Part shown: piece after piece, positions 241-40,138 of the stretch
Numbering within the stretch: the stretch's first letter is position 1
How the letters are laid out: every line of letters begins with the position of its first letter
DNA from: Myxococcota bacterium
GTDB lineage: Bacteria > Myxococcota_A > Polyangia > HGW-17
Direction of reading: 5' to 3'
Length of the DNA stretch: 46,557 bases
Assembly (NCBI GenBank): GCA_018821305.1
Contig: JAHJMN010000208.1
Span: 1 to 46,557 of the forward strand
Notes under the pieces: generated by a model
The model's database searches: none
Told to the model about the DNA's origin: nothing
What the model saw: only the letters and a program-made list of their open reading frames with translations
Position numbers and translations under genes: made by a program

Positions 241-386
241 GTTACTGTCCTGAAATACCCAGAATCAAATTTTTCGCCCGATTTTTGCTCAGGACAGTAA
301 CCGCAAGGTGTTGAATTTATTACTAGTGGCCTGTTAGGGTTTTTAATAAAATCCTTCGCGAAGCGAATTTCAGGACACGAACTAGT
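241..386 (+). repeat. Family B palindromic intergenic repeat, copy B1
   Basis: A perfect 12-bp inverted repeat, GTTACTGTCCTG (241-252) and CAGGACAGTAAC (290-301), encloses a 37-nt loop. It is followed by a second palindromic module whose ends are ACTAGT (322-327 and 381-386), with GGATTTT/AAAATCC-like and TTCGC/GCGAA hairpins inside. A near-identical copy in the opposite orientation is at 14322-14538. The stop codon of the FecR-like gene (382-384, minus strand) lies inside the terminal ACTAGT, so the repeat forms the 3' end of that gene. Confidence 0.85.
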
Positions 387-14321: not shown

Positions 14322-14538
14322 TTCTTAATGTCCTGTGTTCGAATTTGATGAAAAATTTAAAAAACTGTATTACAGGACAGTAACTACATAGTTCGTGTCC
14401 TGTAATTCGCTTCGCGAAGGATTTTATTAAAAATCCTAACAGGCCACTAGTAATAAATTCAACACCTTGCGGTTACTGTCCTGAGCAAAAATCAGGCGAA
14501 AAATTTGATTTTCGGTATTTCAGGACAGTAACTACATA
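14322..14538 (-). repeat. Family B palindromic repeat, copy B2
   Basis: This is a reverse-orientation, near-identical copy of B1 with an additional arm. It holds TTAATGTCCTGT...ACAGGACAGTAA (14325-14384), a hairpin TTCGC/GCGAA, a hairpin GGATTTT-ATTA-AAAATCC, and the perfect 12-bp inverted repeat at 14472-14483/14521-14532, again with a 37-nt loop. It follows the MoxR operon and may also stop its transcription, though no U-tract typical of an intrinsic terminator is seen. Confidence 0.85.
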
Positions 14539-16079: not shown

Positions 16080-16436
16080 AAAAAGTAAATATTTGCTTTC
16101 AGTTTTTGTAATTATGCTTTGATATTGAATGTTTATGAACTGAGCCTGATCCTGTTTGCCTGGCTGCCTGAGTCCCTGTTAAAAAAATTCAGGGATACAG
16201 GTAAGCAGTAGCAGCAACAGGAAAACAGGGGGCTCATTCCTGAAGCATTTCTTTAAAACGAGTCACAATCGTATTACTCAGGAAGCGGTCTAGATGTTTA
16301 TGGGCTGACCCTATCCCTGTTAAAAAATTTCAGGTAACCAGGAAATCAGTAGCAGGAACAGGATAATCAGGGTCTTTCTTATGATGCTTTATCCTGTATA
16401 TAAATCGCTATCTTATAACTCATAAAGCAGTTTAGT
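16080..16436 (+). repeat. Family A repeats, copies A2a and A2b in tandem
   Basis: A first copy ends with the CACAATCGTATTACT motif and the terminal GAAGCGGTCTAG (16281-16292). A second, shorter copy follows at once, repeats the CCCTGTTAAAAAA...CAGGAAATCAGTAGCAGG core, and ends in a decayed AAAGCAGTTTAG (about 16424-16435). The left terminal repeat is missing or unrecognisable. Confidence 0.75.
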
Positions 16437-16845
16437 AAATTCAACACCTTGCGGTTACTGTCCTGAGCAAAAATTGGGCAAAAAATTTGAAAACCTGTAT
16501 TACAGGACATTAACTATGTAGGTCGTGTCCTGAAATTCAATTTTTATCAAAATTGAGCATGTTTAGGAAAACATGCTATTCAGAACACTATAATAAATTC
16601 AAGGTCTTCATTCTTACTGTCCTGTGTACAAATTTGGTGTAAACTTGCAAATTTGGTATTACAGGACATTAACTATGTAGGTCGTGTCCTGAAATTCAAT
16701 TTTTATCAAAATTGAGCATGTTTAGGAAAATATGCTATTCAGAACACTATAATAAATTCAAGGTCTTCATTCTTAATGTCCTGTGTATAAATTTGGTGTA
16801 AACTTGCAAATTTGGTATTACAGGACATTAACTATGTAACCTGAC
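16437..16845 (-). repeat. Family B array, copy B3, with a 159-bp tandem duplication
   Basis: It opens with GTTACTGTCCTG (16454-16465) paired with CAGGACATTAAC (16503-16514). A 159-bp unit then occurs twice (16512-16670 and 16671-16829) with only about three base differences. Each unit carries nested hairpins: CAATTTT/AAAATTG, GCATGTTT/AAACATGC, and outer GTGTCCTGAA/TTCAGAACAC. The low divergence implies a recent duplication. Confidence 0.9.
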
Positions 16846-26411: not shown

Positions 26412-26645
26412 AGGTTAATTCGTTAATGTCCTGTAATACGATCTTTTCAAGTTTACGCCGATTTCAGGCACAGGACATTAAGAATGAAGACCTTGAAATT
26501 ATTGTAGTGTTCTGAATAGCATGTTTTCGTAAACATGCTCAATTTTGATAAAAATTGAATTTCAGGACACGAACTAATTCGTTACTGTCCTGAAAAACGA
26601 TTTTTCAAATTTTTCGTCGATTTTTTTGTTCAGATAGTAACCAGG
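26412..26645 (+). repeat. Family B palindromic repeat, copy B4
   Basis: A perfect 12-bp inverted repeat, TTAATGTCCTGT (26423-26434) and ACAGGACATTAA (26470-26481), is followed by hairpins GCATGTTT-tcgt-AAACATGC (26519-26538) and CAATTTT-gata-AAAATTG (26540-26557), and a decayed GTTACTGTCCTGAA/TTCAGATAGTAAC pair (26581-26641). A decayed family A right end (TAGCGGTCTAG, about 26361) lies just before it. Confidence 0.85.
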
Positions 26646-28147: not shown

Positions 28148-28375
28148 GTTACTGTCCTGAAATACAAGGAATCAAATTTCCGATTTTTGGCTCAGGACTC
28201 TCACTGTTTTCTACGAAAACAGGGGGCCGATTTTGCCGATTTCCTGCGGAAATGCGTTGTAGACAGTGACCGCAAGGTGCTCGTGCTTCTACGCTTCGCT
28301 GCGCGAGAGCGTTATTGTTGAATTTACTAGTAGTGGCCTGTTAGGATTTTTAATAAAATCCTTAGCCCCATAAAA
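28148..28375 (+). repeat. Family B repeat, copy B5, with two nested hairpin insertions
   Basis: The copy begins GTTACTGTCCTG (28148-28159) and retains the CGCAAGGTG...TTGAATTTACTAGTAGTGGCCTGTTAGG backbone of B1. Relative to B1 it is interrupted twice: about 65 bp near 28197-28262 containing CTGTTTTC-tac-GAAAACAG (28204-28222) and outer arms TCACTG/CAGTGA (28201-28206/28264-28269), and about 36 bp near 28280-28316 containing the CTCGTGC/GCGCGAG hairpin. Its right edge lies about 12 bp before the next gene. Confidence 0.85.
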
Positions 28376-29469: not shown

Positions 29470-29716
29470 TTAGACCGCTTTCGGAATAAAAGGAACGAAA
29501 TTGGGAAATTGAATTAAAAACTACTTTCTTTTTAATTATTATTTGATATTGAATGGTTACGTCCTGTTCCTGAACCTGTTTACCTGACTTCCTGATTCCC
29601 TGTTAAAAAAATCAGGTATTCAGGAAATCAGTAGCAGGAACAGGAAAATCAGGGGCTTTCTCTTGAAGCATTTCTTTAAACCGAGTCACAATCGTATTAC
29701 TAATGAAGCGGTCTAA
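29470..29716 (+). mobile_element. Family A MITE-like element, complete copy A3
   Basis: A 247-bp element bounded by perfect 11-bp terminal inverted repeats TTAGACCGCTT (29470-29480) and AAGCGGTCTAA (29706-29716). Inside, CCTG-rich and CAGG-rich arms flank a poly-A spacer and can form a long imperfect hairpin. It carries no gene, as expected for a non-autonomous element, and no clear target-site duplication could be read. It ends 35 bp before the macro-domain start codon. Confidence 0.8.
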
Positions 29717-39937: not shown

Positions 39938-39965
39938 ATTATTCCCGACCAAAATGTTTTGTCAA
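39938..39965 (-). promoter_or_regulatory. Main BMC operon promoter
   Basis: Read on the minus strand: TTGACA (39960-39965), 16-bp spacer, AATAAT (39938-39943). The -35 box is perfect and the -10 matches five of six. The transcript start would be near 39931, about 40 nt before the pduL ATG. The -35 box directly touches the palindrome at 39966-39991. Confidence 0.75.
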
Positions 39966-40045
39966 GAACGTTTTCGGCAACGAAAACGTTCCACGATAGA
40001 ATAATGTGAAAAAGTAGGTCAAGAACGTTTTCGGCAACGAAAACG
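39961..40045. promoter_or_regulatory. Tandem palindromic operators upstream of pduL
   Basis: A 28-bp sequence occurs twice, at 39961-39988 and 40018-40045, 57 bp apart. Each holds the palindrome CGTTTTCG-GCAA-CGAAAACG; in the first copy the arms extend to a perfect 11 bp (39966-39976 and 39981-39991). The copy nearer to pduL overlaps the promoter -35 edge. This is the layout of a repressor or activator site pair. No regulator gene lies within the window. Confidence 0.8.
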
Positions 40046-40138
40046 GTCAAAGGCATAATAAGAGGACAACGCAGGCGCAGGGAGGCAGGGAGTCAGGGAC
40101 AGGGGTGTTTACTTTGAAGGTAAGTGTTTTTGGGACTC

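Follow-up and report, generated by a model that had tools for sequence, protein, structure and literature searches.

Several described families of small bacterial repeats resemble, each in part, the elements reported here as Family B. RUP of pneumococcus, a MITE (non-autonomous mini-transposon) of IS630-Spn1, is a small repeat tied to a resident insertion sequence (IS) by common ends and a common target, and the CIR elements of Caulobacter and Brucella consist of two independent long stem-loops and a linker (both according to the relevant passages of PMC2229807). Most bacterial MITEs fold end to end, unlike CIR and Family B. ERIC/IRU elements are small intergenic MITEs with up to 711 copies per genome (relevant part of PMC10969869), and REP/BIME/REPIN sequences are high-copy palindromes in composite arrays (relevant part of PMC2817692). 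Among insertion sequences, ISRm17 of Sinorhizobium meliloti belongs to the ISDol1 group of ISNCY, according to a passage of PMC10194956.

The window, a whole contig (C26) of 46,557 nucleotides, belongs to a 5.22-Mb draft genome of a Myxococcota bacterium in 216 contigs. The repeats, arms and inner modules of Family B were located in it as the original prediction had described them. We found that the units are short, multicopy and without a transposase gene, and that they are bounded by GTTCGTGTCCTG on the left and CAGGACAKTAAC on the right, which are terminal inverted repeats (TIRs). They fall into two subfamilies, B1 with a unit of 142 bp and B2 with a unit of 153 bp. Five full units and at least four damaged copies lie inside the window; the features are listed here under the name of MITE, for which we argue below.

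241-382, minus strand: full B1 MITE, 142 bp; flanks TAGTTA (235-240) and TAGTTG (383-388), 5/6 match
14324-14384, plus strand: damaged copy lacking its left half, present as the 61-bp hairpin of the right half; TACATA follows
14391-14532, plus strand: full B1 MITE, 142 bp; perfect TACATA duplications (14385-14390 and 14533-14538)
14391-14450, plus strand: B1 left-end hairpin, predicted three-way junction of outer arms and two inner stem-loops; DNA fold z -5.45, covariation
14472-14532, plus strand: B1 right-end hairpin, 61 bp; DNA fold z -7.27
about 16433-16514, plus strand: damaged copy without left half, with B1-type linker and right-end hairpin (B1-type left arm, B2-type right arm)
16515-16520, no strand: TATGTA target duplication
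16521-16673, plus strand: first full B2 MITE of the tandem, 153 bp
16674-16679, no strand: TATGTA target duplication between the two B2 units
16680-16832, plus strand: second full B2 MITE of the tandem, 98.0% identical to the first
16833-16838, no strand: TATGTA target duplication after the second B2 unit
26422-26574, minus strand: full B2 MITE; TAATTC duplications (26416-26421 and 26575-26580)
26581-26641, minus strand: degenerate 61-bp right-end hairpin, adjoining the preceding B2 copy across TAATTC
28148-28363, minus strand: degenerate B1 copy, broken up by other hairpin-rich sequence

The 153-bp element and its 6-bp target duplication together make up the 159-bp period in the window.

Other repeats were also noted. 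A second family, likely the Family A of the earlier reading, occupies positions 1-209, 16105-16300 and 29507-29715 of the window and L053:6079-6322; its ends are TAGACCGCTT/AAGCGGTCTA and its length is commonly 244-245 bp. No duplication above shuffle level was found at its 28 end pairs in the sample, so it is perhaps a TA-target MITE. Positions 39961-40074 hold a 57-bp tandem repeat with the inner palindrome GAACGTTTTCGGCAACGAAAACG.

The abundance of Family B was then measured genome-wide. The pattern of the right-end hairpin, TTAMTGTCCTG-N(30-60)-CAGGACAKTAA, had 243 exact matches in the 5.22-Mb genome and the reversed control pattern had none, which excludes chance. Full copies were collected from the window and from 60 other stretches, picked because they contain matches; together these 61 sequences comprise 1,055,729 bases. 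The full elements in this sample number 104. B1 accounts for 56 of them, mostly 141-143 bp long, and B2 for 48, mostly 152-153 bp long; 54 B1 and 45 B2 copies of regular length were aligned and five of odd length were dropped. If the ratio of the sample holds (104 full copies per 93 exact hairpins), there are roughly 270 full copies in the genome. Shorter versions also occur, namely 61-bp copies of the right hairpin only with near-matching flanks (5/6) at L035:18714-18774 and L038:11555-11615, and an 89-bp version with perfect TGCATA flanks at L035:2494-2582.

Outside this genome, the strict hairpin pattern had no match in 58 relatives, of which one shares its genus and six its family. Family B was absent from the viral contigs and plasmid DNA searched, and a search of phage proteins gave no match. 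A scan of named genomes, in which the genome's own records may have been excluded, gave at least two chance-like matches with different spacing. In the same-genus genome, which has no strict element match, synteny breaks directly after the single orthologous gene examined, and a clean empty site did not turn up. Family B is specific to this genome among the genomes searched. Several contigs (C203, C78, C55, C205, C17 and C63 among them) end at a copy of Family B or of the IS described below, so these repeats break the assembly.

The flanks of the copies carry a duplicated target. The two 6-mers next to the element were identical in 52 of the 102 copies with both flanks, while 1000 shuffles gave a mean of 6.5 and a maximum of 15, and a further 22 copies had a single mismatch; the duplication is thus imperfect in half of the copies. 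Flank widths of 3-5 and 7-10 were identical in 0-2 copies, at or near chance, and a width of 2 was at the shuffled level and reflects base preference. The consensus is TANNTA, with TAATTA and TAAATA the commonest, and its two free middle bases agreed in 72 of 102 copies against 13.6 in shuffles. Among the 68 isolated copies, 32 had a perfect duplication and 48 had at most one mismatch. A fixed 6-bp duplication of this kind marks the action of a DDE transposase.

Transposase genes were searched genome-wide with two models only, PF01609 and PF01797. DDE_Tnp_1 (PF01609) had a single match, a 473-aa open frame (L089) on contig C216 with the domains DUF772 and DDE_Tnp_1. Its best NCBIfam model, by far the best family, was ISNCY_1 (NF033593) at 293.9 bits, below the cut-off of 325. 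About 56 bp of the element are missing at the start of this contig, and since no one contig contains the whole of it, the IS was pieced together. Its right end, CTATTTCAGGACAGTAAC, is followed by TATTTA on this contig; its left end, GTTCGTGTCCTGAAATT, comes from six other contigs that end in its first 76-84 known bases, and TANNTA stands directly before it in all six. Three right ends, 100% identical, are followed by TATTTA or TAACTA. The pieces placed side by side would give an IS of about 1.68 kb (56 plus about 1,623 bases), and the IS is multicopy, as the six other contigs ending in its left end demonstrate. At the right end (L089:1597-1616) the 10-mer CTATTTCAGG stands twice in tandem, possibly as a second transposase site, and TAAC microsatellites lie at three IS insertion sites (L092, L093 and L094).

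This IS has its 17-bp ends and its TANNTA target in common with Family B. The left 17 bases of the IS were matched at 17/17 in 30 of 45 B2 copies and at 16-17/17 in 47 of 54 B1 copies. The right 17 bases were matched at 17/17 in 33 of 54 B1 and 3 of 45 B2 copies, and at 15/17 in 26 of 45 B2 copies. The asymmetry of left and right end is also common to the IS and the MITEs. Moreover, a Family B end adjoins the IS across the 6-mer at four of its six left ends and at one of its three right ends. The MITE interiors bear no visible likeness to that of the IS, so only ends and target link the two. Autonomous copies were also sought as paired ends 0.4-6 kb apart; of 16 candidate pairs, the two that were read (L074 and L053) proved to be host genes between separate MITEs.

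The named plasmid relatives of the L089 transposase are annotated as ISNCY transposases, the best with 28-29% identity over about 95%. Nine of them, picked for diversity among 170 records, all had TA(N2-3)TA duplications (TAGCTA in four, TAGTCTA in three, TAGATA and TAGCCTA in one each), so a 6-7-bp TA..TA target is typical of the ISNCY/ISDol1-like clade, as far as sampled. In eight of the nine, the inverted ends begin with GT at the boundary of the duplication, and in Marinobacter a second IS end adjoins the first across the same TAGCTA, which is the array layout of Family B. The IS1202 family, with TGT/ACA ends and a dif-like target (as described in part of PMC10132070), was rejected, the parent IS having GTT/AAC ends and a TANNTA target. 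A likeness to integron attC sites (59-bp length, GTT/AAC ends) was dropped because the copies are dispersed with variable TANNTA duplications.

Based on these ends, targets and duplications, we conclude, with a probability of roughly 0.93, that Family B consists of MITEs of an ISNCY/ISDol1-like IS and is probably moved by the full-length form of that IS, which is rare in this genome. The IS transposase would bind the common ends in trans, cut out or copy the MITE and join it to TANNTA with a 6-bp stagger. The site would be duplicated intact on both sides, and every insertion would leave a ready target, into which later MITE or IS copies could land and build arrays with one common 6-mer; insertions in genes would be lost through selection. 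Mobility, which the original prediction did not name, accounts for the arrays and spread of Family B as well as for its ends, lengths and target duplications. The selection on structure that it did name is supported in part: neither of its two refuting conditions, a lack of compensatory changes in a larger alignment and random placement inside genes, was borne out.

The compensatory changes concern the hairpins. Both halves of B1 and of B2 are predicted to fold as single-stranded DNA (4/4, z -4.7 to -7.3 against shuffled sequences), while the IS ends showed no hairpin folding (z +0.6 and +0.9). Each MITE end thus carries an added inverted arm, a partner that it would have acquired to form a hairpin of its own. 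RNAalifold gave a poor, mixed structure on the B1 alignment, so pairing was counted on a hand-adjusted single-consensus fold. Such a fold favours pairing by construction, a bias that the slid controls have too. On it, B1 had 69 cells with double pair-keeping changes; shuffles gave 23.6 (sd 7.0), and no slid control exceeded 22. The number of B1 pairs with double changes (9 against 6.6; 48 of 500 shuffles as high) was not exceptional, and in B2 the signal was weak (13 cells against 6.6, with slid controls reaching 18). The compensatory changes thus held up in a larger alignment for the B1 left hairpin and were weak elsewhere. In that hairpin, three main haplotypes (22, 10 and 9 of 54) differ only by paired changes at five tabulated pairs, so few events lie behind the signal. 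Its four paired polymorphic sites were coupled at r2 of 0.42-1.0 over 12-41 bases, against a mean of 0.05-0.07 for unpaired sites at like distance; a fifth paired site, in the inner right hairpin, showed no coupling.

Mean r2 between unpaired sites of B1 was 0.27 for distances of 1-5 bases, 0.05 for 16-30 and 0.02 for more than 90. This decay, and the 4 of 45 B2 copies with a B1-type right half, indicate that copies recombine, which accounts for the modular swaps noted earlier; these chimeras are real, but most of the swapping was the difference between the two subfamilies. The joint change of the TTACTG/TTAATG arms is likewise real and likewise a subfamily difference, the terminal pair being C-G in 48 of 54 B1 copies, A-T in 32 and C-G in 4 of 45 B2 copies, and unpaired in 15 of 99. 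Copies recombine among themselves, but in the B1 left hairpin the arms remain matched.

Two explanations fit this arm matching, selection for pairing and hairpin-templated repair. That the matching came from template switching between the arms (quasi-palindrome repair) and not from selection is, in our estimate, a little short of an even bet. The three haplotypes differ by double, pair-keeping changes only, as one-step copying of an arm would give, but selection for pairing predicts the same pattern, and one-sided changes do occur (pair 13/50 is unpaired in 9 of 54 copies). A bolder proposal, which we consider speculative and rather unlikely, is that the hairpin ends are a working part of a two-hairpin, replication-coupled MITE. 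Such a MITE would outcompete its parent and come to occupy the intergenic TANNTA sites. The end sequence used by the transposase would then be one arm of a hairpin, and the DDE transposase might prefer ends extruded or single-stranded at replication forks, or find extra binding sites there; the two arms of the left hairpin would be kept matched while the copies recombine.

The tandem arrays raise the question of local duplication by slippage or unequal crossing-over in place of repeated insertion. We found 14 abutting pairs of full elements with exactly six bases between them. The B2-B2 pair in the window is more alike than any of 92 other comparisons, and both its units have a GGTCG start that is private among abutting copies; it looks like a true recent local duplication, as the original prediction held. 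Most other tandems in the genome arose otherwise. Ten of the 14 pairs are mixed B1/B2, two are in opposite orientation, and in the remaining three pairs of one subfamily the two units resemble each other no more than unrelated copies do (of 108 comparisons, 22, 8 and 70 were as high). In addition, simulated random insertion of 104 copies into 627 sites (538 empty intergenic TANNTA sites and 89 occupied loci) gave 14.7 abutting pairs (95% 9-21), a fit that depends on the number of sites, about twice as many giving 8.4 expected pairs. Loci with three or more copies numbered 1.8 in simulation; two loci of three were observed, with copies within 60 bp merged. Most tandems are therefore successive insertions, and as a general origin of the arrays local duplication is improbable. 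Since the array count fits random insertion, the arrays call for no special homing; a duplicated target just adds one to an already crowded set of sites.

A still less probable explanation sees structured RNAs or terminators in the blocks: selection would act on their fold, they would spread as regulatory units, and any mobility would be incidental. The strong folding of every tested half, the compensatory changes in the B1 left hairpin and the position near gene 3' ends speak for it: 29% of neighbouring 3' ends lay within 10 bp of an element against 9% at empty TANNTA sites, and 5' ends 2.6% against 10%. However, TAA stop codons inside TAATTA and TAAATA can explain this bias, the fifth paired site is uncoupled, and the copies stand in both orientations, in one genome only, with target duplications. 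An intrinsic terminator (GC-rich stem and T-run) was rejected in particular, because the right-end hairpin has no T-tract and terminator-like sites were at shuffle level (3 against 2.2). A search of the window against Rfam 15 gave no match above the gathering score. Placement is near-exclusively intergenic: counting ORFs of 100 codons or more, 87% of random 150-mers lay mostly inside one, but only 1 of 104 copies did, at the edge of a stretch. Random placement inside genes, which the original prediction had named as evidence against itself, was not seen. Outside the elements there are 3,321 TANNTA sites, of which just 538 counted as intergenic; this implies strong selection against genic insertions (or an intergenic preference). 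Intergenic placement is also expected from purifying selection against transposon insertions, and Family B is not a fixed regulatory RNA.

Y1 elements are not known to leave a target duplication. Movement of REP/BIME-like palindromes by a Y1 (RAYT/IS200) transposase, for which the palindromic, intergenic, composite, high-copy nature of Family B and three Y1_Tnp genes in the genome could be cited, is extremely improbable and as the main mechanism is refuted by the duplicated 6-mers. The genome has a DDE element with the ends of Family B, and Family B does not frame the Y1 loci: the strict hairpin pattern is missing at L046 and matches once each at L047 and L048, away from the Y1 gene. At L046 (G000:C8) the Y1 transposase lies beside regularly spaced repeats, a CRISPR-like array.

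The reading of Family B as MITEs of the resident IS gives the ISNCY/ISDol1 group, which is poorly characterised, a MITE paired with its parent. It also yields a TA(N2-3)TA target rule that nine named relatives support, and it explains simply and quantitatively why bacterial MITEs form tandem arrays with a target duplication in common. Provided that the hairpins matter for movement, the aligned variants, about a hundred, are a natural test set for end structure in DDE transposition. Among the matches listed, no ISNCY-derived MITE was recognised in the literature.

With the known ISNCY/ISDol1 elements the parent IS has in common a related transposase, GT-starting ends (8/9) and 6-7-bp TA(N2-3)TA duplications; it differs in scoring below the ISNCY_1 cut-off, in the sequence of its TIRs and in its large MITE progeny. 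RUP differs from Family B in its TA target, its IS family and its ends, and REP/BIME/REPIN sequences in their Y1 mover, whereas Family B has DDE-type ends and a 6-bp duplication. ERIC/IRU, compared by description, have other ends. CIR, likened by description only, have no TIR, carry a GANTC motif and have no parent named in the relevant passages of PMC2229807. CIR are a precedent for the two-arm layout of Family B, and ERIC for its high copy number.
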